A stretch of DNA of 64,000 nucleotides from positions 1-64,000 of the forward strand of contig JAERTE010000148.1 in the NCBI GenBank assembly GCA_016845145.1, given 5' to 3'. Made by a program: the position numbers and the translations under genes. Below the pieces are notes generated by a model, which ran no database searches, was not told where the DNA came from, and worked only from the letters and a program-made list of their open reading frames with translations. The DNA comes from Rhodospirillaceae bacterium. GTDB lineage: Bacteria; Pseudomonadota; Alphaproteobacteria; Rhodospirillales; Casp-alpha2. This document shows positions 20,882-37,027 of this stretch, piece after piece (the stretch's first letter is position 1; every line of letters begins with the position of its first letter).

Positions 20882-21781
20882 TCAAAAAGCCACCCGGTCT
20901 CGGAAGCGTGCGCGGTAGAGCAGCCGCCCTTGGCCTGTTTGGTCCGGGTTTTCGAAACTGGTGCGCCGATGCAGCACGTTATTACATATGACACCTTCGC
21001 CGGCCTGCAAGCGGTGTGTCATCATCAATGGGTCGCCGCCATCTAGAAGATCGCGCAGAAAAGCGCGTGCGTCTGCCGTTGCCGGGTCGTCGCGCCACAC
21101 GGCGGAGCGTACGCGATGAGTGTAGCGCATGGCCAACTGTCCATCGATAACCGCGAACACCGGCCCTGTCTCTGCGCCGCGCACGTCTCCCGGCTCGATG
21201 TCGTTGGCGGGGATCGTCAGCGCGTCGGCGTGCATGAGGGCGTTGATCCACTCCGGATTCTCGTCACGCAACCGGATGTAGGCGATGTCTGTGTCGAAGA
21301 GTTGCGATTCGCCCCCCGTTGCGGCCGATCGAACGCAATGCAACACCATGCCCAGGACCCATTGGCCGGTTGGATTGTAGTAGCCGTCGGTGTGCCAGCT
21401 CAGTTGTTTATTGGAATAAGGGATATAAACACCGCGCCGCGAATCGGCCATGCCGGCAACGGAAAGCTCGGTGATTCCGTCTTCTCCCGTAAGCAGGGGT
21501 TTTTCCAGCCGATTAAGGCCGAACAGCGCCGCCAAGGACAGCACATCGTCTTTCGAAAGAACGCTGGAAACCTTATAGACCGCCATGTTGAAGCGCTGGC
21601 AGCGGTCGCGAATTTGGCTTATTTCCAGGGCGCTCGGGCTGGATGCATCTTCAATGATGACCTGAAGGTCATGGACGCTGGTGGGTGAGTCGGCCAGTTT
21701 GGCGGCCCGCCACTCTGTATAGGCCGCCTCGTCACGCAGGTCGAAAGAGTTTCCGGTTCTTGCTTGAACTGTTGCCGTCAT
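20882..21781 (-). CDS. TauD/TfdA-like Fe(II)/alpha-ketoglutarate dioxygenase
   Basis: SWHTDGYYNPTGQWVLGMVLHCVRSAATGGESQLFD and GVICNNVLHRRTSF (HxD...H triad). Confidence 0.85.
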   Translation of the reverse strand: MTATVQARTGNSFDLRDEAAYTEWRAAKLADSPTSVHDLQVIIEDASSPSALEISQIRDRCQRFNMAVYKVSSVLSKDDVLSLAALFGLNRLEKPLLTGEDGITELSVAGMADSRRGVYIPYSNKQLSWHTDGYYNPTGQWVLGMVLHCVRSAATGGESQLFDTDIAYIRLRDENPEWINALMHADALTIPANDIEPGDVRGAETGPVFAVIDGQLAMRYTHRVRSAVWRDDPATADARAFLRDLLDGGDPLMMTHRLQAGEGVICNNVLHRRTSFENPDQTGQGRLLYRARFRDRVAF

Positions 21782-21893: not shown

Positions 21894-22033
21894 GATAATG
21901 TCCAGGTCGTGAATAACGGGTCCGGACCGACACTCGAAAACCCCCGGAACTCTACGCCCCGAAGGATGAATAAAAAGGGTAAACAGGGGACGGTCCGTTG
22001 TCGGCGGCCCGTCGGGTAACTTGGAGAAAAAAC

Positions 22034-23323
22034 GTGGCAACCAAAAAGCATGAAACAAAACTTCTCGACGAGCTGGAAGATGGCCCCTGGCCCAGTTTCG
22101 TCAAAGGCCTGAAACGGCTTCGCGATTCCGATGACAAGCAATACGCGCCGATGATGAACGACTTGCTCGGCCAGCTCGAGCACAGTTACGAAACGACGCG
22201 TGGCTATTGGAAGGGCGGCACGGTCAGCGTGTTCGGGTATGGCGGCGGTATTATTCCGCGCTTCTCCGAAGTCTCTGAAGAATATCCTGAATCGAAAGAG
22301 TTCCATACATTGCGCGTCATGCCGCCAGCCGGCATGCACTATGACACCAAGGTGTTGCGCGACCTATGTGATGTCTGGGAGCGGCATGGCTCCGGTCTGA
22401 TCGCCTTTCACGGCCAATCAGGCGATATCATGTTCCAAGGTGCGACGACGGAAAACGTCCAGGCGGCCTTTGACGAGCTCAATGAAATGGGTTTCGACCT
22501 CGGCGGCGCGGGCCCGGCCTTGCGCACGTCGATGAGCTGCGTCGGCCACGCGCGTTGTGAACAGTCCTGCTACGACGAAGCCCGTGCGCTGCGTTCGGTG
22601 ATCAACGAGTTCCTCGACGAAATGCACCGTCCGGCACTGCCCTACAAGTTTAAGTTCAAGTTCTCGGGCTGTCCCAACGATTGCGTCAACGCCATTCACC
22701 GCGCCGACTTCGCCGTGATCGGCACCTGGCGCGATGACATGAAAGTCGATCAGGGCGAGGTTAAGGCCTACATCGACGAGGTTGGGCGCAAATACATGAT
22801 CGACAACGTCATTGCGCGTTGTCCGACCAATGCCTTAAGCCTCAACGACGATGACACCCTGGACGTGGACAATTCCAGCTGCGTGCGCTGCATGCACTGC
22901 CTGAATGTCATGACCAAAGCGCTGTCGCCGGGTGATGACAAGGGTGTCTCCATTCTCATGGGTGGCAAACGCGCGCTGAAGATCGGCGATCTCATGGGTA
23001 CGGTCATTGTGCCGTTCATGAAACTCGAGACGGATGAAGACTTCGAGAAATTCACAGAGTTCGCCGAGCGGGTAATCGAGTTCTTTGCCGAGAACGCGCT
23101 TGAGCATGAGCGTGTCGGTGAAACCATCGACCGCATCGGGATCACGAACTTCCTTGAAGGTGTCGGCGTTGATATCGACCCGAACATGATCAGCCATCCG
23201 CGTACAAATTCGTTCGTACGCACCGATGACTTCGATGAAGCCGCCGAGCAGTGGGAAGAGCGCAAGAAGCGCCGGGCCGCTGGTGAGGACAACATTCGTG
23301 AGGACTTCGTCGCCGCCGAATAG
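22034..23323 (+). CDS. dsrA: Reverse-type dissimilatory sulfite reductase alpha subunit
   Basis: GTG start; siroheme/FeS motif CVGHARCEQSCYDE, FSGCPNDCVNA, ferredoxin domain CVRCMHCLNVM. Confidence 0.97.
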   Translation: MATKKHETKLLDELEDGPWPSFVKGLKRLRDSDDKQYAPMMNDLLGQLEHSYETTRGYWKGGTVSVFGYGGGIIPRFSEVSEEYPESKEFHTLRVMPPAGMHYDTKVLRDLCDVWERHGSGLIAFHGQSGDIMFQGATTENVQAAFDELNEMGFDLGGAGPALRTSMSCVGHARCEQSCYDEARALRSVINEFLDEMHRPALPYKFKFKFSGCPNDCVNAIHRADFAVIGTWRDDMKVDQGEVKAYIDEVGRKYMIDNVIARCPTNALSLNDDDTLDVDNSSCVRCMHCLNVMTKALSPGDDKGVSILMGGKRALKIGDLMGTVIVPFMKLETDEDFEKFTEFAERVIEFFAENALEHERVGETIDRIGITNFLEGVGVDIDPNMISHPRTNSFVRTDDFDEAAEQWEERKKRRAAGEDNIREDFVAAE

Positions 23324-23357: not shown

Positions 23358-24440
23358 ATGTCTGAGGAAAAACAAGCACCCCGTCGTCCCGTCGAATGCG
23401 GCGTTCCCGACCCGATGCAGTACATGCATCCGGTCCTGAAGGCCAACTACGGTAACTGGGATTGGCATGACCGCATGCGCCCAGGCGTTTTGCATCACGT
23501 CTCTAAAAGCGGAGACGAGGTTTGGACGGTCCGTGCCGGTACGCAACGCCAGATGGACGTCTATACCATCCGCCTGCTGTGCGATATTGCCGACGAATTT
23601 GCCGAAGGCCACGTGCGCTTCACAACCCGCTCCAACATCGAGTTCATGGTGTCGAGTGAAGCCCAGGTGGAGCCGCTGATCGGCAAATTGAATGATGAAG
23701 GGTTCCCTGTCGGCGGTACCGGTAACTCGGTGTCGATGATTTCGCATACTCAAGGTTGGCTGCATTGCGACATTCCGGGCACGGATGCGTCGGGTGTGGT
23801 GAAGTCGTTGATGGATATGATGTACGAGGAATTCGTCAAGGAAGAGATGCCGAACCGCGTGCGTATCACCACATCGTGCTGCCAGATCAACTGTGGCGGC
23901 CAGGGCGATATCGCCATTAACGTGCAGTACACCAAGCCACCCGTGATCAACCACGACTTGGTGGCCAATGTCTGTGAGCGCCCAGCCGTTGTGGCGCGTT
24001 GCCCGGTTGCGGCTATCCGCCCCGCCATGGTCAACGGCAAGGCGACCCTGGAAATTGACGAGAAGAAGTGCATTTGCTGTGGCGCGTGCTATCCGCCGTG
24101 CCCGCCGATGCAAATCAACTCTCGTGAATCCACCAAGATCGCGATCTGGGTCGGGGGCAAGCACTCCAATGCGCGTTCCAAGCCGACCTTCCACAAATTG
24201 GTGATGGCCAATCTGCCCAACAATGCGCCGCGCTGGCCCGAGGTTGAAGAGGTGGTTCGGAAAATCCTCTACGCCTACAAGGACAACGCCCGTGACTGGG
24301 AGCGTATGGGCGAATGGATTGAACGCATCGGCTGGCCGAAGTTCTTCGAATTGGTCGATACGCCGTTCACGCACCATCACCTGGATGATTATCGTGGTGG
24401 TCGTGCGGCGTTGAACGCCTCGGCACACATTCATTTCTAG
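23358..24440 (+). CDS. dsrB: Reverse-type dissimilatory sulfite reductase beta subunit
   Basis: TTSCCQINCGGQGDIAI, CICCGACYPPCPPM. Confidence 0.97.
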   Translation: MSEEKQAPRRPVECGVPDPMQYMHPVLKANYGNWDWHDRMRPGVLHHVSKSGDEVWTVRAGTQRQMDVYTIRLLCDIADEFAEGHVRFTTRSNIEFMVSSEAQVEPLIGKLNDEGFPVGGTGNSVSMISHTQGWLHCDIPGTDASGVVKSLMDMMYEEFVKEEMPNRVRITTSCCQINCGGQGDIAINVQYTKPPVINHDLVANVCERPAVVARCPVAAIRPAMVNGKATLEIDEKKCICCGACYPPCPPMQINSRESTKIAIWVGGKHSNARSKPTFHKLVMANLPNNAPRWPEVEEVVRKILYAYKDNARDWERMGEWIERIGWPKFFELVDTPFTHHHLDDYRGGRAALNASAHIHF

Positions 24441-24452
24441 GGGCTTTGAAGA

Positions 24453-24812
24453 ATGAAGTTTGGAGTTCTCGTCAACGAAGGTCCGTTCACGCACCAAGCG
24501 TCGGATTCGGCCTACCACTTCACCAAAGCCGCCCTGGAAAAGGGGCACGAGGTGATGCGGGTGTTCTTCTATTACGACGGCGTCAACAACGCCAATAAGC
24601 TCTCCGAGCCACAGTCAGACGACCGCAATCTGGTGAAGATGTGGGGCGAACTGGCTGCCGAACACAATCTGGATTTGGTGGTCTGCGTCGCGGCTGCGCT
24701 CCGGCGCGGCATCAAAGACGAGATTTTGGCGGATGGGTTCAGGATTTCCGGCCTCGGTCAATTGATTGAATTGGGCATGGCGGCCGACCGCACGGTCGTG
24801 TTCGGCGATTGA
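24453..24812 (+). CDS. dsrE: Sulfurtransferase subunit DsrE
   Basis: DsrE/F fold; conserved Cys in LVVCVAAALRRGI; position in operon. Confidence 0.95.
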   Translation: MKFGVLVNEGPFTHQASDSAYHFTKAALEKGHEVMRVFFYYDGVNNANKLSEPQSDDRNLVKMWGELAAEHNLDLVVCVAAALRRGIKDEILADGFRISGLGQLIELGMAADRTVVFGD

Positions 24813-24822
24813 GGGGGCTTAA

Positions 24823-25245
24823 ATGGAAGACGTACAATTCGATACAGAGGGCGTGAAAAAGAAATTCATGTTCGTCAATTCAAAGGCTCCCTATGGCACC
24901 ATTTATGCCTTGGAAGTGCTGGAGATGATCATGATTTCGGCCGCTTTTGAGCAACATGCCGTGATCGCCTTCGTTGATGACGGGGTGTTTCAGATCAAGA
25001 AAGGCCACAACACCAAAGCGACGGGCATGAAGAACTTCTCGCCCACATACGGTGTGGTCGAAATGGAAAAAGAAGACGCCGACGAGGACGAAGACATCGA
25101 TATGGTCTGGCGCATCGTGGTGGAGAAAGAATCCATCGAAGCCCGCGGGCTCTCTGCGGATGATTTCGTCGTTGACGTGGAGGTGCTGAGCAGCGCCGAG
25201 CTTTCGGACCTGATGGCCGAGCAAGAAGTCGTGTTGAGCGGCTAA
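24823..25245 (+). CDS. dsrF: Sulfurtransferase subunit DsrF
   Basis: KKFMFVNSKAPYGTIYALEVLEMIMISAAF; GMKNFSPTYG; position in operon. Confidence 0.94.
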   Translation: MEDVQFDTEGVKKKFMFVNSKAPYGTIYALEVLEMIMISAAFEQHAVIAFVDDGVFQIKKGHNTKATGMKNFSPTYGVVEMEKEDADEDEDIDMVWRIVVEKESIEARGLSADDFVVDVEVLSSAELSDLMAEQEVVLSG

Positions 25246-25263
25246 GGTAAAGGATTGCACAAC

Positions 25264-25572
25264 ATGAACATGCTGCATACGGTTAATAAATCACCTTTCG
25301 AGAGGGGCGCGTTGGAAACCTGCCTGCGTCTCGCCAAGTCGGGTGCTGCTGTGTTGCTGATCGAAGACGGCGTCTATGCCGCTTTGGCCGGCACCGCCAA
25401 GAGCGACCTGATTGAGGGCCGCAAGGGCGATTTGAAATTCTATGTCCTGGACACGGATATCGACGCCCGGGGCTTGAACGAAAAACCCATGATTGATGGG
25501 GTTGAGACGGTCGACTACGGGGGATTTGTCGATCTCGTCGCTGAACACGACGCCGTCCATTCATGGCTATAA
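25264..25572 (+). CDS. dsrH: Sulfurtransferase subunit DsrH
   Basis: MLHTVNKSPFERGALETCLRLAKSGAAVLLIEDGVYAAL. Confidence 0.95.
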   Translation: MNMLHTVNKSPFERGALETCLRLAKSGAAVLLIEDGVYAALAGTAKSDLIEGRKGDLKFYVLDTDIDARGLNEKPMIDGVETVDYGGFVDLVAEHDAVHSWL

Positions 25573-25614: not shown

Positions 25615-25947
25615 ATGGCATACGAACTGAATGGCCAGAGCATCGAATCCGATGAAGAAGGCTATCTCACCGACATCAGCGTCTGGAACGAAGACTTGGC
25701 CGATCTGATCGCCAAGGACGAAGACATCGATATGACTTCCGAGCACTGGGAGGTCGTGAACTTCCTGCGTGAATATTACGAAGAATACCAGGTCGCTCCG
25801 GCAGTGCGCGTGCTCACCAAGGCGGTGAAAAAGAAACTCGGCGCCGACAAGGGTAACTCGGGCTACTTGTACGAACTGTTCCCCTACGGTCCGGCCAAGC
25901 AGGCATGCAAAATTGCCGGTTTGCCGAAACCGACGGGTTGCGTGTAA
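25615..25947 (+). CDS. dsrC: Sulfur carrier protein DsrC
   Basis: C-terminal CKIAGLPKPTGCV with both conserved cysteines. Confidence 0.97.
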   Translation: MAYELNGQSIESDEEGYLTDISVWNEDLADLIAKDEDIDMTSEHWEVVNFLREYYEEYQVAPAVRVLTKAVKKKLGADKGNSGYLYELFPYGPAKQACKIAGLPKPTGCV

Positions 25948-26039: not shown

Positions 26040-26774
26040 TTGACGACGGTGTTCGCGATATTGCTATTGGTGGCATTCGCCGTGCTGGTCGTTGGCGTGG
26101 CCCTTAAGGTCCGTCAGTATTGGAACACCCCGGCGCCATTGAAAATCGCCACCACCCCGGCGCCGACGACGCGCTCGGGCGTGGTCGTGCGGATGTTCCG
26201 CGAGCTGGTGTTTTTCGAAAGCCTGTTCAAGTCCAACAAATGGATCTGGGTGTTCGGCTATCTGTTCCACGGCGCCATGGCCTTGGTGTTGCTCCGGCAT
26301 CTGCGCTATTTCACCGAGCCCGTCTGGGATTGGGTGGTGTTGATCCAGCCGTTCGGCAAATACGCAGGTTTTGCCATGGCGATTGGCTTGTTCGGTCTAT
26401 GGGCGCGGCGGTTCTTGGTGGATCGGGTGCGTTATATCTCGGCACTGTCCGATCATCTGATGCTGGCGTTGCTGGTCGGCATTACGCTGACGGGGCTGGG
26501 CATGAAGTATGTGGCGCACACGGATATCGTCATGCTCAAGGCTTTTGCGCTGGGGCTGTTGCACTTCGATTGGCAGCCCTTGCCGACGCACCCGTTGCTG
26601 CTTGCGCACCTAGGGATGGTCGCGTTGTTGATGGTGGTATTTCCGTTTTCCAAGCTATTGCACGCGCCCGGCGTATTCTTCAGCCCGACCCGTAACCAGG
26701 TGGACAATCCGCGCGAGCGTAGGCATTTGGCGGCGTGGGCGGCGGAGCTTGAATCCAAAAATGGTGGAGACTGA
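26040..26774 (+). CDS. dsrM: DsrM, membrane cytochrome b (TTG start likely)
   Basis: NarI-like membrane protein; between dsrC and dsrK. Confidence 0.92.
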   Translation: MTTVFAILLLVAFAVLVVGVALKVRQYWNTPAPLKIATTPAPTTRSGVVVRMFRELVFFESLFKSNKWIWVFGYLFHGAMALVLLRHLRYFTEPVWDWVVLIQPFGKYAGFAMAIGLFGLWARRFLVDRVRYISALSDHLMLALLVGITLTGLGMKYVAHTDIVMLKAFALGLLHFDWQPLPTHPLLLAHLGMVALLMVVFPFSKLLHAPGVFFSPTRNQVDNPRERRHLAAWAAELESKNGGD

Positions 26775-26776
26775 TC

Positions 26777-28342
26777 ATGGCTGACCAGGATTTCGCCACA
26801 CCAGAACTCGACGAATACACCAAGGTGCCGCCCGTTGAGGTCGATTCCATGGCCCATTCCAGCCCGTACGTGGCCGCCGCCGGACATCAGGAGGCCCTGG
26901 GATTTCCGGGTGAACTGGTGGACAACTGGCAGGAAAAAGCCATTGAGAAGATGGGCGATCTGCTGGGCAAATACCGTTCCTTGCCGGTCTATCTTGATGC
27001 TTGCGTCAAATGCGGGGCGTGTACCGACAAGTGCCACTATTTCCTCGGTACGGGTGATCCGAAAAACATGCCCGTCGCTCGCCAAGACCTGTTCCGTAGC
27101 GTTTACCGGCGCTACTTCACCAAGGCCGGCAAGTGGTTCCCCTGGCTGGTCGGCGCCAAGGATCTGACGGAAGAGGTTCTGGACGACTGGTACAAGTATT
27201 TCCACCAGTGTTCGCAGTGCCGGCGCTGTTCAGTGTTCTGTCCCTACGGTATCGATACTGCCGAGATTTCCATGGCGGCGCGCGAGATTATGGATCACGT
27301 GGGCAAGGGCCAGAAGTACTGCAACGAGATCATCGGTAAAGTGCACGACATCGGCAACAACCTAGGTCTGCCACCGAAAGCTATGCGCGCGACGCTGGAA
27401 GACCTTGAAGAAGACCTGGAAGACGAGACCGGATTGGAAATCAAGCTGCCCTTGGATGTACAGGGAGCAGACGTTTTGCTGGTAACGCCCAGTGCCGATT
27501 TCTTCGCAGAGCCGCATATCGATGGCCTGATGGGCTATGCCAAGGTGTTCCATCAATCGAACACCAGTTGGACGCTTTCGACCTATGCATCCGAGGCCGC
27601 AAACTTTGCCATGTTCATTGGTTCCTACGAGCAGATGAAGCAAATCGCCGAACGTATCCGCAAGGCGGCCCAGGACTTGGGCGTGAAGCGTATCGTCGTC
27701 GGCGAGTGCGGGCATGCATGGCGGGTTGCCTACAATTTCTGGAACACGCTGGCCGGGCCGTTCGATTTCCTCGACCCCAATTATCCGGCACCCCAGCACA
27801 TCTTGGAATTCACGCGCGACCTGATCGAAGATGGGACGTTGAAATTCGACAAATCCCAGAACGATCACATGACCATCACGTTCCACGACTCGTGCAACGT
27901 GTCGCGTGCGTCGCGCATGGGTGATGAGCCGGGCGGGCAATTCGAATATCCGCGCGCAGTGATCCGTGCATGCTGCAACAACTTCGTCGATATGGCCGAC
28001 AACACCACGCGTGAGAATACGTTCTGTTGCGGCGGCGGCGGCGGGTTGTTGACCGACGATCTGATGGAGTTGCGCGTCAAGGGCGCCAAGCCCCGCATGG
28101 AGGCATTGAAGCAAGTTGTAGAGGACAACGGCGTCACCCACATGGCGGCCATCTGCGCGATTTGTAAAACACAGTTTGCCAAAGTGATGCCCTACTACGG
28201 CATGCGCATGGACCAAATTGTCAGCGTCCACCAATTGGTGTCCAACGCCATTATTTTGGATGGCGCCGAGGGCGGTGACGACGATGACGACGAACCAACC
28301 GAAGCCACTGAGACGGCCGATGGAGACGTGCAAGATGAATGA
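26777..28342 (+). CDS. dsrK: DsrK, HdrD-like FeS protein
   Basis: CVKCGACTDKCHYFLGTGDPKNMP, CSQCRRCSVFCPYGID, ENTFCCGGGGG. Confidence 0.96.
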   Translation: MADQDFATPELDEYTKVPPVEVDSMAHSSPYVAAAGHQEALGFPGELVDNWQEKAIEKMGDLLGKYRSLPVYLDACVKCGACTDKCHYFLGTGDPKNMPVARQDLFRSVYRRYFTKAGKWFPWLVGAKDLTEEVLDDWYKYFHQCSQCRRCSVFCPYGIDTAEISMAAREIMDHVGKGQKYCNEIIGKVHDIGNNLGLPPKAMRATLEDLEEDLEDETGLEIKLPLDVQGADVLLVTPSADFFAEPHIDGLMGYAKVFHQSNTSWTLSTYASEAANFAMFIGSYEQMKQIAERIRKAAQDLGVKRIVVGECGHAWRVAYNFWNTLAGPFDFLDPNYPAPQHILEFTRDLIEDGTLKFDKSQNDHMTITFHDSCNVSRASRMGDEPGGQFEYPRAVIRACCNNFVDMADNTTRENTFCCGGGGGLLTDDLMELRVKGAKPRMEALKQVVEDNGVTHMAAICAICKTQFAKVMPYYGMRMDQIVSVHQLVSNAIILDGAEGGDDDDDEPTEATETADGDVQDE

Positions 28343-30284
28343 GATGACCAAGGACCCGACGCTGCTGACCAATCGGCGTTTCAAGGATGGCGACCAGGAT
28401 TTGGGTCCGCTGCGTGACAAGATCTTCAAGGCCGATCACAGCTACAAGTGCCCGACCTATGTGCATCGCACACCGCCGTGCCAGGGGAGTTGCCCGTCGG
28501 GCCATGAAATCCGCGGTTGGCTGGCCATCGCACGCGGCATGGATAAGCCGCCCGTTGAGGGCATGACATGGCAGGAATATGCCTTCAAGCGCATGGCCGA
28601 GGCCAATCCGTTTCCGTCGATCATGGGCCGGGTTTGTCCGGCACCTTGCGAGGATGGCTGTAACCGAAACGAAGTTGATGATTTCGTCGGTATCAACGCC
28701 GTCGAGCAATACGTCGGCGACTGGGCCATTGAGAACAATCTCACTCTCGACGGTCCGGCCGAAGAGACTGGCAAGAAAGTTGCCGTCATCGGTGGCGGAC
28801 CCGGCGGCTTGGCGGCAGCGTACAAGCTGCGCCGTATGGGCCATGGTGTCACCGTGTTCGAGGCGCACGATCAACTGGGCGGCATGATGATCTACGGCAT
28901 CCCCGGGTACCGTACGCCGCGCGACATGGTCGCGGCTGAAATCCAACGTATCTTGGATACGGGCGTTGAAGCTAAGCTCGGTGTGCGGGTTGGCGAAGAT
29001 GTCAGCCTGGAGCAGTTGGAAGCCGATTTCGATGCCGTCTTATGGGCTGTTGGCGCGCAGAACGGCCGCGACCTGCCGGTCGAAGGCTGGGCCGGTACAT
29101 CCAATTGTATCTCTGGCGTTGATTTCCTCGAAGCCTTCAACAAGGACCGCCTGCAGTTCGTCTACGAGAAAGTCGTCGTGGTCGGTGGTGGCGATACCTC
29201 TATCGACGTAGCTTCGGTAGCACGCCGCATCGGACACATCGAAAAAATTGCCGAACACGATATGCCGGAAGCCGTGATCTTGGGCCATACCGCGCACGAC
29301 GTGGCTGGTTCCATCACCCGTCAGGGCGTGAAGGCGGTGCTGACGTCGCTGTTTCCGCTTGAGGGCATGACAGCGGCAGAACGCGAACGCGAAGATGCGG
29401 TGCGTGAAGGTATCGACATCAAAGGCGGTGTTATACCGCTGGAAGTGATCAAGGGCGACGATGGTCGCGCACGGGCGCTGAAAATGTGTGAGTGCGACAT
29501 GGAAGGCATGAAGCCGATCCCGCGCGAAGGCACTGAATTCGAGATCGAATGCGACCTGATCGTCTCGGCCATCGGCCAGATGGGTGATTTGACCGGCTTC
29601 GAAGCCCTGGATAACGGCAAGGGCTTCATGGATTGCGACGGCCTCTATAAGGTCAAGAACCACGACAAGCACTTTGCATGCGGCGATATCGTGCGCCCGC
29701 ACCTGCTGACCACGGCCATCGGCCAGGGCGGCGTGGCGGCAGACAGCATCGATCGTTACCTTGCCGGTGCCTCGATGGATAAACGGCCCAAAGTGGACGT
29801 GCATCATTTCAAACTGCTGAACGAGTTGACGCAGCGCGAACTGTCACCGGAAGAATATGACGACGAGCCGACGCGTGGCACTGATGATTCGAACTTCGCT
29901 GTGCACAATTATGAAGATCGGTCGTCGACGCATATCATTGCACATGAGGAACTGTTCGTTGGTCATTTCGGTTATGACGCGCGCGCCCGGCGTACGGAGG
30001 TCCATATCGATGCGGACCAAGTACTCGGCAATTTTGAAGAACGTATCGAAGGCTTGACCGAGGAACAGGCTCAGCACGAAGGCGAACGCTGCATGAGTTG
30101 CGGGATTTGTTTCGAGTGTGACAACTGCGTCATTTTCTGCCCGCAAGATGCGATCTTTAGGGTCAAGAAAGATCAGCGAGCGGTCGGCCGCTACGTGGAT
30201 ACCGACTACAACAAATGCATTGGGTGTCACATCTGTAAAGATGTCTGCCCCTCTGGTTACATTCAAATGGGATTGGGTGAATAA
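28335..30284 (+). CDS. dsrL: DsrL paralog 1, iron-sulfur flavoprotein
   Basis: CPTYVHRTPPCQGSCPSGHEIRGWL; two Rossmann folds; C-terminal CMSCGICFECDNCVIFCP and CIGCHICKDVCP; cofactor-domain motif VLTSLFPLEGMTAAE. Confidence 0.95.
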   Translation: MNEMTKDPTLLTNRRFKDGDQDLGPLRDKIFKADHSYKCPTYVHRTPPCQGSCPSGHEIRGWLAIARGMDKPPVEGMTWQEYAFKRMAEANPFPSIMGRVCPAPCEDGCNRNEVDDFVGINAVEQYVGDWAIENNLTLDGPAEETGKKVAVIGGGPGGLAAAYKLRRMGHGVTVFEAHDQLGGMMIYGIPGYRTPRDMVAAEIQRILDTGVEAKLGVRVGEDVSLEQLEADFDAVLWAVGAQNGRDLPVEGWAGTSNCISGVDFLEAFNKDRLQFVYEKVVVVGGGDTSIDVASVARRIGHIEKIAEHDMPEAVILGHTAHDVAGSITRQGVKAVLTSLFPLEGMTAAEREREDAVREGIDIKGGVIPLEVIKGDDGRARALKMCECDMEGMKPIPREGTEFEIECDLIVSAIGQMGDLTGFEALDNGKGFMDCDGLYKVKNHDKHFACGDIVRPHLLTTAIGQGGVAADSIDRYLAGASMDKRPKVDVHHFKLLNELTQRELSPEEYDDEPTRGTDDSNFAVHNYEDRSSTHIIAHEELFVGHFGYDARARRTEVHIDADQVLGNFEERIEGLTEEQAQHEGERCMSCGICFECDNCVIFCPQDAIFRVKKDQRAVGRYVDTDYNKCIGCHICKDVCPSGYIQMGLGE

Positions 30285-30341
30285 TGAGTTGACGCAACGG
30301 CCCCCGGATCGGGGGTGACAGGGAGAGGAAAGGGTAAGGCA

Positions 30342-32270
30342 ATGGCTGAAGAACGCGTGAATTACCGCCGTTATCAGGACGGCGACGCAGAGCATCCGGA
30401 ATGGCCGGAACTTCGGGTCTCGGGAGGGGAGTCCGACAGTTGTCCTACCTACGTTCACCGCACGGCGCCGTGCCAGGGCAGTTGTCCGTCCGGCCACGAT
30501 ATCCGTGGCTGGCTCAGTATCGCCCGCGGCATAGATAAGCCGCTCGATGATGCGCCCTGGCAACAGTATGCTTTCGAGCGTATGACCAAGGCCAATCCGT
30601 TTCCATCGGTCATGGGTCGGGTCTGTCCGGCTCCCTGTCAGGACGGCTGCAACCGCAACGACGTCGAAGAGTTCGTCGGCATCAATTCCATCGAACAATA
30701 TGTCGGTGACTGGGCGTTGCAGAACGGTCTGGCTTTCGAAAAACCGAAAACCGAATCCGGCAAAAAGGTCGCTATCGTCGGTGGCGGACCGGGCGGGTTG
30801 GCGGCAGCTTATTTTCTGCGAAAAAAGGGCCACGCCTGCACGATCTTCGATTCCTACTCGGCGCTTGGCGGTATGATGGTATTCGGCATTCCCGGCTACC
30901 GCACGCCCCGCGACGTGCTGGAAGGGGAAATTCAGAGAATCGTCGACATGGGCGTTGAGACGCGACTCGATACGCGGGTCGGTGTCGATGTCTCCATTGA
31001 TGAGTTGGAGAAAGATTTCGATGCCGTCTTTTGGGCGATCGGTGCGCAAAGCGGCAAGCCGTTGCCGGTCCCCGGCGCCGAGGCGCCAAACTGCGTCGAC
31101 GGCATTGTCTTTTTGCGCGCCTTCAACGAAGGCCGTCTGCAGCATCTGACCGGCCGTGTGCTGGTCGTTGGTGCCGGTGACACGGCCATGGACGTCGCCG
31201 CTGTGGCGCGGCGCATCGGCAACGTCGATGCCGCCGACGGCGAAAAACTGCCCGAGAAGGTGATCATGGGCCAAACGGTGCACGATGTCGCGCAGGCGGC
31301 CAAGCGGCAGGGTGCGGATGTTTGGATTGTCTACCGCCGACCCATTTCGAAAGCGCCGGCCACGGAACACGAGCTGCAATCGGTGATTGCGGAAGGTGTT
31401 GAGATTCATGAAAATTTGGCGCCGAAAGAAGTCATTCTCGATGCCGAGGGACGCGCAACCGCACTACGCGTCATGCCCGCGGACTGGAGCAGTGGTGAGA
31501 TGGTGGCCGATGAAGATGCCGCCTTCAATATTGAGTGCGAGCTGATTGTCGGTGCCACGGGCCAGGCCGGGGACTTTACCGGCTTCGAGAGCCTCGACAA
31601 TGGCTGGGGATTGATGAACGCCGACAGCCATTATCGCATCCCGGATCACGAAGGGCATTTTGTTGGTGGCGACATCATCAAGCCGCATCTGCTGACCACC
31701 GCGATTGGTCACGCGTCCTTCGCTGCCGACAGCATCGACGCCTACCTGGACAACCGCGATCTGAAGGATCGGCCCAAGGTCGACGGCTTCCGGTTCAACT
31801 TGCTGGCGGCATTACGCGACCACGAACTGGAACCCGAGGAAGCCGAAAACGAGCCGGTGCGTGGGACCGACAGCGGCAATTTCGCCGTCCATAATTATGA
31901 GGACCGGTCGTTTGCCGAAATCATCCCAAGTACCAAGCAGTTCCTCGGGTATTTTTCCGGCACGCCGCGGCTGCACCGTGACGAGGTCGAAATCTCCGCG
32001 GATAATGTACTCGGCAATTTTGATGAGCGTTTCACCGGCCTGTCCGAGGAAACAGCCGTCGAAGAGGCCGACCGCTGCATGGCCTGCGGACTCTGCATGG
32101 AGTGCGACAACTGCATGATTTATTGCCCGCAGGACGCGATCGAGCGTGTCGCCAAGGATCAGCGGGTGTCGGGGCGCTATGTGGAGACCGATTATACGAA
32201 GTGCGTCGGCTGCTACATCTGCGCCGATGTCTGTCCTTCCGGTTACATCCAGATGGGTTTGGGAGCCTAA
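30342..32270 (+). CDS. dsrL: DsrL paralog 2, iron-sulfur flavoprotein with GltD-like VYRR motif
   Basis: CPTYVHRTAPCQGSCPSGHDIRGWL; CMACGLCMECDNCMIYCP and CVGCYICADVCP; cofactor-domain motif VWIVYRRPISKAPA. Confidence 0.93.
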   Translation: MAEERVNYRRYQDGDAEHPEWPELRVSGGESDSCPTYVHRTAPCQGSCPSGHDIRGWLSIARGIDKPLDDAPWQQYAFERMTKANPFPSVMGRVCPAPCQDGCNRNDVEEFVGINSIEQYVGDWALQNGLAFEKPKTESGKKVAIVGGGPGGLAAAYFLRKKGHACTIFDSYSALGGMMVFGIPGYRTPRDVLEGEIQRIVDMGVETRLDTRVGVDVSIDELEKDFDAVFWAIGAQSGKPLPVPGAEAPNCVDGIVFLRAFNEGRLQHLTGRVLVVGAGDTAMDVAAVARRIGNVDAADGEKLPEKVIMGQTVHDVAQAAKRQGADVWIVYRRPISKAPATEHELQSVIAEGVEIHENLAPKEVILDAEGRATALRVMPADWSSGEMVADEDAAFNIECELIVGATGQAGDFTGFESLDNGWGLMNADSHYRIPDHEGHFVGGDIIKPHLLTTAIGHASFAADSIDAYLDNRDLKDRPKVDGFRFNLLAALRDHELEPEEAENEPVRGTDSGNFAVHNYEDRSFAEIIPSTKQFLGYFSGTPRLHRDEVEISADNVLGNFDERFTGLSEETAVEEADRCMACGLCMECDNCMIYCPQDAIERVAKDQRVSGRYVETDYTKCVGCYICADVCPSGYIQMGLGA

Positions 32271-32277
32271 TCCGACT

Positions 32278-32655
32278 ATGATCAAGATCGGCCAAATGTT
32301 GGCGATATTAGCGCTGCTCTTTGCGGGTAGCGCCAGCGCGACGGAATGGAAGGTACCGTTCCCGAACGTGCCCAAGGGCGAGGGCGAGTCGTGCGTACGT
32401 GACACGGCTTTCATGCGCGCCAATCACATGGACTTGTTGTCGCACCAGCGCGACGACACCGTGCACCAGGGTGTTCGTCCGAAACAGACGGCACTGACCG
32501 AGTGCCTAACCTGTCATGCGGTCAAGGATGAGGCAGCCAAGCCTGTGACCTACAGCGACCCGAAACATTTCTGCCGAACCTGCCACGACTACGCGGCGGT
32601 AACGATCGATTGCTTCAGTTGCCACAATTCGGCTCCGGAGAAAGCCAAGCCATGA
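32278..32655 (+). CDS. dsrJ: DsrJ, triheme cytochrome c
   Basis: Signal sequence; CLTCH, CRTCH, CFSCH haem motifs. Confidence 0.95.
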   Translation: MIKIGQMLAILALLFAGSASATEWKVPFPNVPKGEGESCVRDTAFMRANHMDLLSHQRDDTVHQGVRPKQTALTECLTCHAVKDEAAKPVTYSDPKHFCRTCHDYAAVTIDCFSCHNSAPEKAKP

Positions 32656-33404
32656 GTGAACATCGTAAAGTTCCCGCTTGTGAAAACGCGCCTGCGCGTG
32701 GTCGGCGCGGGTTTTTGAAGGGGTTGGCGGCAGCCGGGGCTTTGGCCATAGCGCCGGGCGTGACGCTCTACAAGTTTGCCGAGGCCGCAGGCGTCTCAAA
32801 CGCTGTCCGATGGGGCATGCTGATCGATATCAACAAATGCCAGGACGATTGTCAGGCCTGTGTAACGGCGTGCTCAAACGAAAATGGATGGGGTGGCGGA
32901 AATCGACCAAGCACCGACGCGCAGTGGATCCGCAAGATGACCCTCAAACACACGGCGAGTGGACATCAGAAATCATTGCCGATGATGTGCCAGCACTGTG
33001 CCGAGCCGCCTTGTGTCTACGTCTGCCCCACTGGCGCCTCGTTCAAGCGCGCCGATGGCATTGTATTGGTGGACAAACACATCTGCATTGGCTGCCGGTA
33101 TTGCATGATGGCATGCCCCTATAAGGCGCGATCGTTCGTGCATGAGGACGTTGAGGGGCAAAAAGCCCATGCGCCGCGCGGTAAGGGTACCGTGGAAAGC
33201 TGTACCCTGTGTGTGCATCGCATTGACGCCGGCAAGCAACCGGCTTGCGTTGAAGCTTGTGGAAAAGACGGTGGCGGGGCGTTCGTATTTGGCGATCTGA
33301 ACAACCCGAACAGCGACATATCGAAACAGCTCGCCCAGTATGGCGGTACGGCTATTCGCGGCGATCTCGGTGTTGATCCGGGTATCAGGTATCGGGGGCT
33401 CTGA
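32652..33404 (+). CDS. dsrO: DsrO, periplasmic FeS protein (Tat signal)
   Basis: RRGFLKGLAAAGALAIAP Tat motif; CQDDCQACVTAC, CQHCAEPPCVYVCP, CIGCRYCMMACP. Confidence 0.95.
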   Translation: MSEHRKVPACENAPARGRRGFLKGLAAAGALAIAPGVTLYKFAEAAGVSNAVRWGMLIDINKCQDDCQACVTACSNENGWGGGNRPSTDAQWIRKMTLKHTASGHQKSLPMMCQHCAEPPCVYVCPTGASFKRADGIVLVDKHICIGCRYCMMACPYKARSFVHEDVEGQKAHAPRGKGTVESCTLCVHRIDAGKQPACVEACGKDGGGAFVFGDLNNPNSDISKQLAQYGGTAIRGDLGVDPGIRYRGL

Positions 33405-34612
33405 TGAAAACATTGCGCTATCGCCCGTTCAGCTTGGACAGCAAACCACTTGTCGGCGCTTTCTTCTTTGCCGGTCTGCTGGCGCTGATGGGCTTGGGCT
33501 CCGCTTGGTACATGGAACACAATGGCCATGTGGTCACCGGCATGGACAATCAGGTCGTGTGGGGTATGCCGCATGTGTTTGCTGTGTTCTTGATTGTCGC
33601 TGCGTCGGGTGCGCTGAATGTGGCGTCCATGGGGTCCGTGTTCGGACGCGCGTCCTACAAGCCGCTGGCGCGCCTATCGGGCCTGGTGGCCATGGCGTTG
33701 TTGATGGGCGGATTGGCTGTTCTGGTGCTCGATCTGGGACGGCCCGACCGCTTGATCGTCGCCATGACCAGCTACAATTTCAAATCCATCTTTGCCTGGA
33801 ATATTTTTCTCTATACTGGGCTTTTGGTCGTCACCGCCGTCTATCTCTGGACCATGATGGAGCGGCGCATGAACGGCTACACCAAGGCAGCCGGTATGGC
33901 GGCATTCCTGTGGCGTCTAATGCTGACCACCGGCACCGGGTTGATATTCGGCTTTCTGGCGGCGCGCCAGGCCTATGACGCGGCGGTCATGGCGCCGATG
34001 TTCATCGCCATGTCGTTTGCTTTCGGGCTGGCGATCTTTTTTCTGCTGATGCTCGGCTTGTACGAAGGCGATGGGCGTCCGGTCGGCGATTATATCGTTA
34101 ACCGCATGGGCAAGCTGCTGGGGCTTTTTGTCGCTGCCGTCCTGTACTTTACGTTTGTCCAGCACGCTACCAATCTTTATGCGCCCGAGCATCACGGTGT
34201 CGAGCGGTTCATCCTGCTTGATGGCGGATTCATCACGACGCTGTTTTGGGTCGGACAAGTGATCATTGGCGGTCTAATCCCGCTGGCGCTGTTGTTCCCG
34301 CTGGGCAGCGGCAAGTTGGGCCGGGGGCGCGTGTCGGTGGCCTCGGTACTGGTGATCTTGGGCGGAATCGCGCAGGTTTACGTCATCATCATTGGCGGCC
34401 AGAGCTATCCGCTGGTCCTGTTTCCAGGCTGGGAGGCTTCCAGTTCCTTCTTTGACGGCACGGTGAGCGATTATCAGGCCAGTCTGCCAGAGGTCGGGCT
34501 TGGCATCGGCGGTATTGCCATCGCCGGTCTGATCGTGCTTGTTGGAACCAAGGTACTGGATTTCATGCCGGTCAGCCTCGCCGACGAAGAGGTCGACCCG
34601 CATCACTCCTGA
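33404..34612 (+). CDS. dsrP: DsrP, NrfD-family membrane protein
   Basis: About 10 TM helices; overlaps dsrO stop; NrfD-like. Confidence 0.95.
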   Translation: MKTLRYRPFSLDSKPLVGAFFFAGLLALMGLGSAWYMEHNGHVVTGMDNQVVWGMPHVFAVFLIVAASGALNVASMGSVFGRASYKPLARLSGLVAMALLMGGLAVLVLDLGRPDRLIVAMTSYNFKSIFAWNIFLYTGLLVVTAVYLWTMMERRMNGYTKAAGMAAFLWRLMLTTGTGLIFGFLAARQAYDAAVMAPMFIAMSFAFGLAIFFLLMLGLYEGDGRPVGDYIVNRMGKLLGLFVAAVLYFTFVQHATNLYAPEHHGVERFILLDGGFITTLFWVGQVIIGGLIPLALLFPLGSGKLGRGRVSVASVLVILGGIAQVYVIIIGGQSYPLVLFPGWEASSSFFDGTVSDYQASLPEVGLGIGGIAIAGLIVLVGTKVLDFMPVSLADEEVDPHHS

Positions 34613-34627
34613 TAGGAGATTTATCTG

Positions 34628-35629
34628 ATGGATCGCGAAGAGCATCCGTTCGCGCAATATGTGCGCATTGTCGGTCGTGGCAAAAACGTCGGCCGTTCGC
34701 TCACCATGGACGAGGCCGAGGCGGCCATGGACATGATTCTGGCCGATCAAGTGCGCCCCGAACAATTGGGCGCCTTCCTGATGCTGCTGCGAGTTAAGGA
34801 AGAGACACCGGAAGAGGTGGCGGGTTTCGTCAAGTCGGCGCGCAAGGGGTTCGATATTCCGTCCGATGCGCCGAAGGTCGACCTGGATTGGTCCTCCTAC
34901 GCCGGTAAGCGCCGGCAGTTGCCGTGGTTCTTACTCGCAGCCCTGGCACTGGCGCAGCAAGGGGTGAAAATATTTATGCATGGCGCGGAAGGCCACACGC
35001 CGGGCCGCCTTTATACGCGCGAAACGTTGGAGGCGTTGGGGCTGCCGGTGGCGGGTGATTTTGCTGAGGCCTCGGCCCAAATCAAGGCCGCCAACTTCGC
35101 CTACCTGCCGCTCTCGGTGGTGAGCGCCAAGATGCACGAGATCATCGAGTTGCGCCCGATCTTGGGGCTGCGCTCGCCGGTGCACACCATTTCGCGCATG
35201 CTCAACCCGTTTGGCGCGCCGAATGTGCTGCAGGGTATTTTCCACCCCGGCTACAATGCCATCCACCAAGGCGCGGCCCAATTGCTGGGCTATGAGCACA
35301 TGGCCGTGTTCCGCGGCGAAGGTGGTGAGATTGAACGCCGCCCGTCGAAATCGCTGGATGTCTGGACTGTTGAGAACGGCGTGATGGGTACGCACGAGTG
35401 GCCGGCCCTTTTGCCCGAACCGCAGCAACCGAAAGACGATGAGATGGAGATCGACCGCCTGGTCGAGGTCTGGAAGGGTGACGAGAGCGATGCTTACGCC
35501 GTTGCCGCCGTTACCGGGACCTTGGCGTTGGCGTTGCATCTCATGGGCCGAGCAGCGAACCCCGCCGATGCGCAGGCCAAAGCCGAAGCGCTCTGGGCCG
35601 AGCGCAACCGCGAACAGCTTGCTGCCTAG
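34628..35629 (+). CDS. TrpD2/YbiB-like protein (anthranilate phosphoribosyltransferase-related fold)
   Basis: RSLTMDEAEAAMDMILADQVRPEQLGAFLMLLRVKEETPEEVAGF; LGLRSPVHTISRMLNPFGAPNVLQGIFHPGY; lacks canonical TrpD catalytic GNRxxSS segment. Confidence 0.85.
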   Translation: MDREEHPFAQYVRIVGRGKNVGRSLTMDEAEAAMDMILADQVRPEQLGAFLMLLRVKEETPEEVAGFVKSARKGFDIPSDAPKVDLDWSSYAGKRRQLPWFLLAALALAQQGVKIFMHGAEGHTPGRLYTRETLEALGLPVAGDFAEASAQIKAANFAYLPLSVVSAKMHEIIELRPILGLRSPVHTISRMLNPFGAPNVLQGIFHPGYNAIHQGAAQLLGYEHMAVFRGEGGEIERRPSKSLDVWTVENGVMGTHEWPALLPEPQQPKDDEMEIDRLVEVWKGDESDAYAVAAVTGTLALALHLMGRAANPADAQAKAEALWAERNREQLAA

Positions 35630-35632
35630 AAC

Positions 35633-37027
35633 ATGAACGGCGTCCTGATATCGGCGCTGCACAAATCGTCGGGAAAGACGACGATTTCCCTTGGTGTGGC
35701 GGCGGCGCTAAGTGCTCGCGGCCTCAAGGTGCAGAGCTTCAAAAAGGGCCCGGACTACATTGACCCCATGTGGCTGGCGCTGGCCAGTGGCCAGCGCTGC
35801 CGCAACCTGGATTTCCACACCATGAAACCGGCCGATATCTCGGATTTTTACCGTGACCACGGTGAAGGCGCGGATATGAGCCTCGTTGAGGGCAACAAAG
35901 GCCTGTTTGACGGCGTCGATGTGGCTGGTATGGACAGCAATGCCCAACTAGCCAAGTTGTTGGGAGTGCCGGTGGTGCTGGTCGTCGATACCCGCGGCAT
36001 GACCCGCGGGATTGCGCCTGTGATTCAAGGCTACACGGGCTTCGATACCGACGTATCCATCGCCGGTGTGATCCTTAATCAGGTCGGTGGCCCCCGGCAC
36101 GAAAGCAAACTGCGCGCAGCTTTGGAGCACTATACCGATGTCCCGGTAATCGGCGCCGTTGGCCGACATCCGGAAATGGAAATCGCAGAGCGGCATTTGG
36201 GATTGGTGCCGGCCAACGAGGCCAGTGAGGCGGTGACACTCATTGAGCACGCGCGGGTGGCAATCGAGCAAAGTGTGGATATTGGCGGACTTGGCGTTAT
36301 CGCCTGCATGGCCGATGAACCGGCGAAACTGACCACGCCCCTAGCGGCATTGCCCGCCGCCGATATCCGTATCGCGGTCGCCCGTGACGCGGCATTTGGG
36401 TTTTATTACCCGGACGACCTGGAGGCCATGCGCCGCGCCGGCGCGGAAATTTTGCCGTTTGATGCGTTGCGTGATGCCCACTTACCCGATTGCGACGGTC
36501 TATTCATCGGTGGCGGGTTTCCGGAAACCCAGGCCGCCGGGTTGGCCGCCAATGCCCAACTTCGTGGCGACATCCGCCGTCGGCTTAGCGCAGGGCTGCC
36601 GGCTTATGCGGAGTGCGGTGGATTGATGTATTTGTCCGGGTCGCTCACCTGGCAGGGCGAGCGCCATGAGATGGTTGGAGCCATCCCGGGCGAAGCAGTG
36701 ATGCACAAGACGCCGGTCGGACGTGGCTACGTGCGATTGCAGCCGACCGGTCTTTCGCCTTGGCCGGCTAACGGTGCGTCAGCGCGAAATATCGCAGCCC
36801 ATGAATTCCATTATGCTTCACTTGAGGGCCTGCCAGCCAATTCCGATTTCGCCTTCCGTGTCACACGCGGCTACGGTATCGATGGCTTGCATGATGGTCT
36901 GATCGTCGGCAACACGCTGGCAACGTTTTCGCATCATCGCAATATCGGCGGGAACGATTGGGTGCGCCGGTTTCTGGCGTTCGTGCGCCAGATCAAAACC
37001 GGTAACGATGGTATCGAAACGGCGTAG
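35633..37027 (+). CDS. dsrN: DsrN, cobyrinic acid a,c-diamide synthase-like (siroheme amidation)
   Basis: ALHKSSGKTTISLGVAAALSARGLKVQSFKKGPDYIDP; PAYAECGGLMYL glutamine amidotransferase; adjacent to dsr operon. Confidence 0.93.
   Translation: MNGVLISALHKSSGKTTISLGVAAALSARGLKVQSFKKGPDYIDPMWLALASGQRCRNLDFHTMKPADISDFYRDHGEGADMSLVEGNKGLFDGVDVAGMDSNAQLAKLLGVPVVLVVDTRGMTRGIAPVIQGYTGFDTDVSIAGVILNQVGGPRHESKLRAALEHYTDVPVIGAVGRHPEMEIAERHLGLVPANEASEAVTLIEHARVAIEQSVDIGGLGVIACMADEPAKLTTPLAALPAADIRIAVARDAAFGFYYPDDLEAMRRAGAEILPFDALRDAHLPDCDGLFIGGGFPETQAAGLAANAQLRGDIRRRLSAGLPAYAECGGLMYLSGSLTWQGERHEMVGAIPGEAVMHKTPVGRGYVRLQPTGLSPWPANGASARNIAAHEFHYASLEGLPANSDFAFRVTRGYGIDGLHDGLIVGNTLATFSHHRNIGGNDWVRRFLAFVRQIKTGNDGIETA

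Follow-up and report, generated by a model that had tools for sequence, protein, structure and literature searches.

Tandem DsrL-1A proteins with different predicted cofactor pockets in an oxidative dsr locus of a Rhodospirillaceae bacterium

Why would a sulfur oxidiser carry two adjacent dsrL genes, and do the two DsrL proteins exchange electrons with the same nicotinamide cofactor? The question is raised by a stretch of 64,000 nucleotides from a Rhodospirillaceae bacterium (GenBank assembly GCA_016845145.1, contig JAERTE010000148.1, positions 1 to 64,000, forward strand), hereafter called the window. It contains a full oxidative dsr locus with the gene order dsrA-B-E-F-H-C-M-K-L1-L2-J-O-P, a TrpD2-like gene and dsrN. 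The dsrB gene of the window is the only one in the genome. At a probability of roughly two in three, we consider the locus to encode two specialised electron-transfer partners, an NAD-type DsrL1 and an NADP-type DsrL2, for this single rDsrAB. An NAD-type and NADP-type pair had been proposed in a preliminary description of the window. We found the underlying motif split to be ancient, conserved and mirrored at a second fingerprint, and the proposal needs amending in that the second protein is a YRR-bearing DsrL-1A and not a DsrL-2.

The two DsrL proteins and their nucleotide pockets

In the published classification, DsrL-1A proteins carry a long insert and a long linker and prefer NAD(H), DsrL-1B uses NAD(H) only, and DsrL-2 carries a YRR motif, the tested enzyme of this type using NADP(H) only (PMC7596348). 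Within the family YRR is associated with strict use of NADP(H), and the lack of YRR with use of NAD(H). The 2020 paper reported YRR in DsrL-2, with one exception, and in no DsrL-1 (PMC7596348). The link between YRR and NADP(H) named in the preliminary description agrees with this work, and the two paralogues of the window differ exactly at the residues concerned:

28335..30284, + strand: dsrL1, a DsrL-1A with a non-YRR (TSLF), predicted NAD-type pocket (profile, domain, alignment and motif evidence)
29346..29354, + strand: SLF of DsrL1, occupying the NADP-phosphate position (alignment)
30342..32270, + strand: dsrL2, a DsrL-1A with a YRR, predicted NADP-type pocket (profile, domain, alignment and motif evidence)
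31170..31187, + strand: GAGDTA of DsrL2, residues 277-282, the GxGxxA fingerprint of the NAD(P) Rossmann domain; the DsrL1 counterpart is GGGDTS
31332..31340, + strand: YRR of DsrL2, residues 331-333, aligned to the same columns as the YRR of structurally solved family relatives

Both genes are complete, and the 650 and 643 codons described earlier were recovered. dsrL1 encodes 649 amino acids plus a stop and has an 8-base overlap with the dsrK stop, dsrL2 encodes 642 amino acids plus a stop from an ATG start (an alternative in-frame GTG lies at 30315), and 57 bases separate the two. Against the DsrL-containing subfamily profile NF009410/PRK12771 (cutoff 516) DsrL1 scored 703.8 bits and DsrL2 682.1 bits, and Fer4_20, FAD/NAD(P) and C-terminal 4Fe-4S domains were found in both. 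When recomputed, the cysteine motifs at both termini were present as originally claimed: at the N-terminus the cysteines are residues 39, 49, 53, 101, 105 and 109 in DsrL1 and 34, 44, 48, 95, 99 and 103 in DsrL2, and the C-terminal sets are intact. The YRR of DsrL2 lies precisely where it had been placed (31332-31340). The VLTSLFPLEG motif of DsrL1 was likewise recovered, with a correction of its extent: the whole motif covers 29337-29366, and the interval first assigned to it, 29343-29357, spans TSLFP only.

Comparison with a congeneric genome gave dN/dS values of 0.03 (dsrL1) and 0.067 (dsrL2), next to 0.015-0.035 for dsrA, dsrB, dsrK and dsrP. Both dsrL genes are under purifying selection. 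A pseudogene or an assembly artefact was ruled out by the low dN/dS, by the length of the contig (178 kb) and by the recurrence of the arrangement in many independent assemblies. A plasmid search returned no match. The nearest named relative, SI072_bin112, is a 'Rhodospirillaceae' metagenome-assembled genome; its DsrL2 shares 91% identity with that of the window.

Judged by the published features of the family (PMC7596348) both proteins are DsrL. They are encoded by complete genes in an organism with dsrAB; they possess an N-terminal ferredoxin domain, FAD and NAD(P) Rossmann domains, a linker and a C-terminal ferredoxin domain; and their neighbours are dsr genes, with no link to 2-oxoacid:ferredoxin oxidoreductase genes. 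Both also show the DsrL-1A extensions. The insert of about 32 amino acids in the NAD(P) domain is present, such that 53 residues separate the glycine fingerprint from the YRR position in DsrL1 and DsrL2 and 22 in the DsrL-1B-like outgroup, and the linker, about 30 amino acids longer in DsrL-1A, measures 128 residues in both proteins versus 81-82 in the outgroups. In the tree both proteins fall inside the DsrL-1A clade with a support of 100/99, the outgroups being assigned by features (dsrABL order, length and motif; one lacks both YRR and the insert, the other has YRR) and not by named reference proteins. The outgroup sequences are genuine DsrL, as they sit in dsrABL arrangements. A common clade together with a common specificity had been named beforehand as the outcome that would count against an NAD/NADP pair; what emerged was the common clade with different motifs.

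DsrL1 also lacks YRR, as a DsrL-1 should, and its SLF fits the published residue set. DsrL2 departs from DsrL-1 by its YRR, and this is the one trait it shares with the DsrL-2 definition, from which it deviates in clade placement and in having the 1A extensions. Judged from these sequence traits, DsrL2 is a DsrL-1A with a putative NADP-type pocket, a combination that the published scheme excludes. YRRP occupies the NADP-phosphate site in 13/13 aligned DsrL2 orthologues, and the YRR aligns in register with that of the solved NfnA (9n5u). An AlphaFold model of DsrL2 is of low confidence (mean pLDDT 52) and usable only for placing YRR at what is predicted to be the end of a Rossmann strand.

GxGxxA is a classical NADP-type Rossmann fingerprint. 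Among 115 DsrL-1A proteins it was present in all 53 with YRR but in only 1 of the 62 without it; the other 61 non-YRR proteins have a serine at the last fingerprint position, where the YRR proteins have alanine. This coupling favours a true shift in cofactor preference over random variation at three residues. Woeseia-like and related proteins nested in a YRR clade (L083, L089, L097, L111 and L091) have lost the motif, reading SWE, SRE or YRE, and in all of them except L091 the alanine of GxGxxA is now serine. This genome and several relatives additionally encode a DsrL-like protein of 552 amino acids with YRR and without the DsrL-1A extensions (L003, on contig C116 of the window's genome, G000).

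Occurrence and origin of dsrL pairs

A search of 120 relatives, in which adjacency was tallied from gene coordinates, yielded a contiguous dsrL pair in 13 genomes including the window's own, spread over 8 families of the window's order. In two further genomes a contig break falls between the copies, and in one relative (G046) the pair is reversed. Tandems of a YRR and a non-YRR gene occur in Rhodospirillales-like genomes, in Paracoccaceae/Rhodobiaceae and in Burkholderiales, and involve three YRR lineages and both gene orders: the Paracoccaceae/Rhodobiaceae tandems (L112, L117) use a YRR lineage other than that of the window, and those of Burkholderiales (L107, L108, L113) a third one, with the YRR gene placed first. 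In several lineages (L073, L077, L079, L099) a YRR protein is the only DsrL of an operon that is oxidative in all other respects, which suggests that YRR enzymes can support oxidation by themselves.

Other gene contents were also encountered. One relative (G080, contigs C2 and C145) has three DsrL genes, namely two adjacent YRR copies and a TSLF copy on a separate contig. Distant genomes of the same phylum (G153, G184 and G224), which perhaps belong to Magnetococcia, hold one YRR and one non-YRR DsrL. In their loci (L198, L199, L201) a DsrL copy comes after dsrAB, so that two dsrABL sets are likely; these would probably represent a different route to an NAD/NADP pair.

The history of the motif was reconstructed on a careful tree of 60 rows, from which the trait columns had been removed before building. 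YRR needs 6 changes on this tree (bootstrap 5-95% range 6-6), at least 5 of them being forced by starred branches. Within DsrL-1A the motif was gained or lost at least about five times. A single YRR clade within DsrL-1A was rejected (p-AU 3.2e-12), and a single origin of the tandem YRR partners was rejected weakly (p 0.023 and 0.0375, moderate). The window DsrL2 falls in a clade (100/100) that also includes Thiomargarita, Beggiatoa-like and Acidiferrobacteraceae copies and whose sister group is the alphaproteobacterial DsrL1 clade (96/94). A recent duplication was also rejected, as DsrL1 and DsrL2 form separate deep clades (100/99 and 100/100). A tree of the NAD(P) domain only still required 5 YRR changes and was poorly resolved; exchange of this domain may be the sole cause of the YRR pattern. 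The state of the motif differs between the outgroups, with YRR present in the DsrL-2-like and absent from the DsrL-1B-like one.

In many gammaproteobacterial sulfur oxidisers the DsrL of the operon is of TSLF type, and a YRR copy stands by itself at another place in the genome; YRR was found in 22/22 stand-alone copies with 3 kb of flank. The NAD(P) transhydrogenase genes pntA/pntB lie within 3 kb of 7 of the 23 out-of-operon YRR copies, from two to three lineages, and of none of 64 operon copies. The order is pntA-pntB-dsrL in Thiomargarita nelsonii and dsrL-pntA-pntB in bin114. This proximity provides independent genomic support for a link of YRR with NADP(H), not proof. The loci concerned are L062 (6730-11926), L063, L070, L084, L086, L087 and L078.

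Two probable partners for one rDsrAB, and competing explanations

As to which cofactor each protein prefers, whether both serve rDsrAB and which way the electrons move, we infer the following scheme. DsrL1, a standard DsrL-1A, would exchange electrons with NAD(H), and DsrL2, with a nucleotide pocket presumably switched by YRR and GxGxxA, with NADP(H). During sulfur oxidation the electrons of the siroheme enzyme would exit via either protein and so supply respiration with NADH or biosynthesis with NADPH. Since all three DsrL proteins assayed to date are reversible, DsrL2 could also let NADPH drive electrons backwards. The genome has RuBisCO and pntB genes, such that direct NADPH formation would be useful. 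The pair thus suggests that sulfur electrons can go to two separate cellular currencies, and it raises the question whether oxidation of stored sulfur feeds NADPH straight into CO2 fixation and avoids costly transhydrogenation.

Several points weigh against this scheme. RuBisCO and pntB occur just as often in relatives whose single dsrL is NAD-type, no association of the pair with either gene was visible among the relatives, and CO2 fixation does not explain the distribution of the pair. NADP(H) use by YRR-bearing DsrL-1A is deduced from motifs, and specificity may hang on residues beyond YRR. The non-YRR DsrL-1A of Allochromatium vinosum still turns over NADP+, if weakly, so the split between DsrL1 and DsrL2 may be one of preference and not a strict choice. 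The linkage to pntAB was observed only at orphan copies, not at tandems of the window type; orphan YRR copies distant from dsrAB could use another partner.

DsrL2 might instead be a reductive arm, through which NADPH supplied by PntAB or otherwise makes rDsrAB run in reverse under anoxia, in sulfite or sulfur reduction, overflow or disproportionation, while DsrL1 runs oxidation. NADPH-type DsrL-2 does accompany reduction in the characterised cases (PMC7596348), and the proton-driven transhydrogenase beside some YRR copies yields NADPH. We nevertheless regard this as unlikely, given that dsrEFH and DsrL-1A mark the locus as oxidative and that the solitary YRR proteins of oxidative operons indicate a use of the motif in oxidation as well. 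A search for DsrD found none, but matched no control genome either and is uninformative. The two proteins could also act jointly, as a heterodimer on rDsrAB that equilibrates or splits electrons among NADH, NADPH and the sulfur substrate like a transhydrogenase hub. The A. vinosum protein is a homodimer and a heterodimer has been proposed for the tandem of SURF_8 (PMC7596348). The adjacency of the two genes, their equal insert and linker lengths, and the Nfn-type proteins as the closest solved relatives by sequence fit such an assembly. Its chance is lower still, as many genomes hold both types far apart or one type only, and each must be capable of functioning alone.

Related orphan copies distant from dsrAB, some adjoining pntAB, could further suggest that DsrL2 is a general NADPH:ferredoxin-type oxidoreductase, which has come to lie in the operon by chance and has no partnership with Dsr. 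However, dsrL2 is part of the dsrK-dsrJ interval both in the window and in its relatives, and in several genomes it encodes the sole DsrL at that position, which leaves this idea a slim chance. The least probable explanation is duplication for dosage, with redundant proteins and a motif difference of little effect. It would account for the shared domain layout and clade, but the split is old and strongly supported, the motif is invariant in one paralogue and missing from its counterpart, a second fingerprint is coupled to it, and pairs of this kind came together on several occasions, drawing on different YRR lineages.

Known systems and the surrounding locus

DsrL of A. vinosum (DsrL-1A; Loeffler et al. 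2020, PMC7596348) shares with the window proteins the domain order, the insert of about 32 amino acids, the long linker, the position between dsrK and dsrJ and an oxidative rDsrAB; it differs from DsrL2, which has YRR and GxGxxA, and it is present in one copy where the window has two. The preliminary description had set the tandem against this single gene, and the difference stands, but a tandem at this position is not unprecedented: it has been reported for the Myxococcales SURF_8, with the order dsrABEFHCMKL1L2JOP (PMC7596348; PMC10591310). The window has the same defining arrangement, an adjacent dsrL pair between dsrK and dsrJ together with rdsrABEFH. Compared by description only, SURF_8 (Myxococcota_B GCA_003598065) is also alike in its dsrABEFHCMKLLJOP order, its divergent tauD/dsrQ and its assignment to DsrL-1A, and unlike in that no cofactor-motif difference was reported and that the organism also has reductive dsrAB.

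Desulfurella amilsii DsrL-2, which is strictly NADP(H)-dependent, has YRR at the phosphate-binding position like DsrL2, which by contrast shows both DsrL-1A extensions, insert and linker, and groups within the 1A clade, apart from the DsrL-2-like outgroup. In Nitrospirae CG2_30_53_67 and Gaiellales SURF_19, two or three DsrL per genome are thought to permit two directions; there each dsrL has its own dsrAB and the classified ones are DsrL-2, whereas here two DsrL-1A share one dsrB. NfnB has a homologous FAD/NAD(P) domain whose YRR contacts the NADP phosphate (PMC7596348), but no C-terminal ferredoxin arm, long linker or Dsr partner.

A text search of the literature, with subscription papers outside its scope, turned up no mention of YRR in DsrL-1, nor of NAD/NADP DsrL pairs. 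One tandem dsrL, that of SURF_8, is already known; within the scope of that search, YRR inside DsrL-1A and pairs of NAD and putative NADP type appear new. A marine sulfur oxidiser and many relatives thus break the published rule for telling DsrL types apart. Genome studies deduce from the DsrL type in which direction sulfur metabolism runs, and YRR has so far been taken as the mark of DsrL-2. As the motif is common in DsrL-1A of proteobacterial sulfur oxidisers, motif and clade need separate scoring. Sulfur oxidisers have repeatedly gained or retained a second, putative NADP-type partner beside the NAD-type one, sometimes adjoining transhydrogenase genes.

The remaining features of the locus are:

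20885..21781, - strand: TauD-family dioxygenase, dsrQ-like (PF02668), divergent from dsrA
21998..23323, + strand: dsrA (NIR_SIR and NIR_SIR_ferr domains, synteny; start approximate)
23358..24440, + strand: dsrB (TIGR02066)
24453..25572, + strand: dsrE, dsrF and dsrH, oxidative-type sulfurtransferase genes (TIGR03012, TIGR03010, TIGR03011)
25615..25947, + strand: dsrC (TIGR03342)
26040..26774, + strand: dsrM (NF038037 match below its curated cutoff, plus synteny; start approximate)
26777..28342, + strand: dsrK (NF045796)
30301..30315, + strand: perfect GC hairpin CCCCCGGATCGGGGG within the dsrL1-dsrL2 gap, without a T tract
32278..32655, + strand: dsrJ (identified solely from its position and conservation; no Pfam match)
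32610..34612, + strand: dsrO and dsrP (Fer4_11, NrfD, synteny)
34628..35629, + strand: TrpD2-like glycosyl/phosphoribosyl transferase (Glycos_trans_3N), between dsrP and dsrN
35633..37027, + strand: dsrN, CobB/CobQ-like amidotransferase (GATase_3, AAA_26, CbiA)

The gap hairpin could set the DsrL1:DsrL2 ratio. Among relatives with tandems, unrelated hairpins of a similar kind occur in this gap in L044 and L117, with none clear elsewhere. The divergent TauD gene at dsrA parallels the dsrQ/tauD genes described in the literature for SURF_8 and for Roseobacter-type clusters, and the TrpD2-like gene between dsrP and dsrN recurs in many alphaproteobacterial and some gammaproteobacterial dsr operons.

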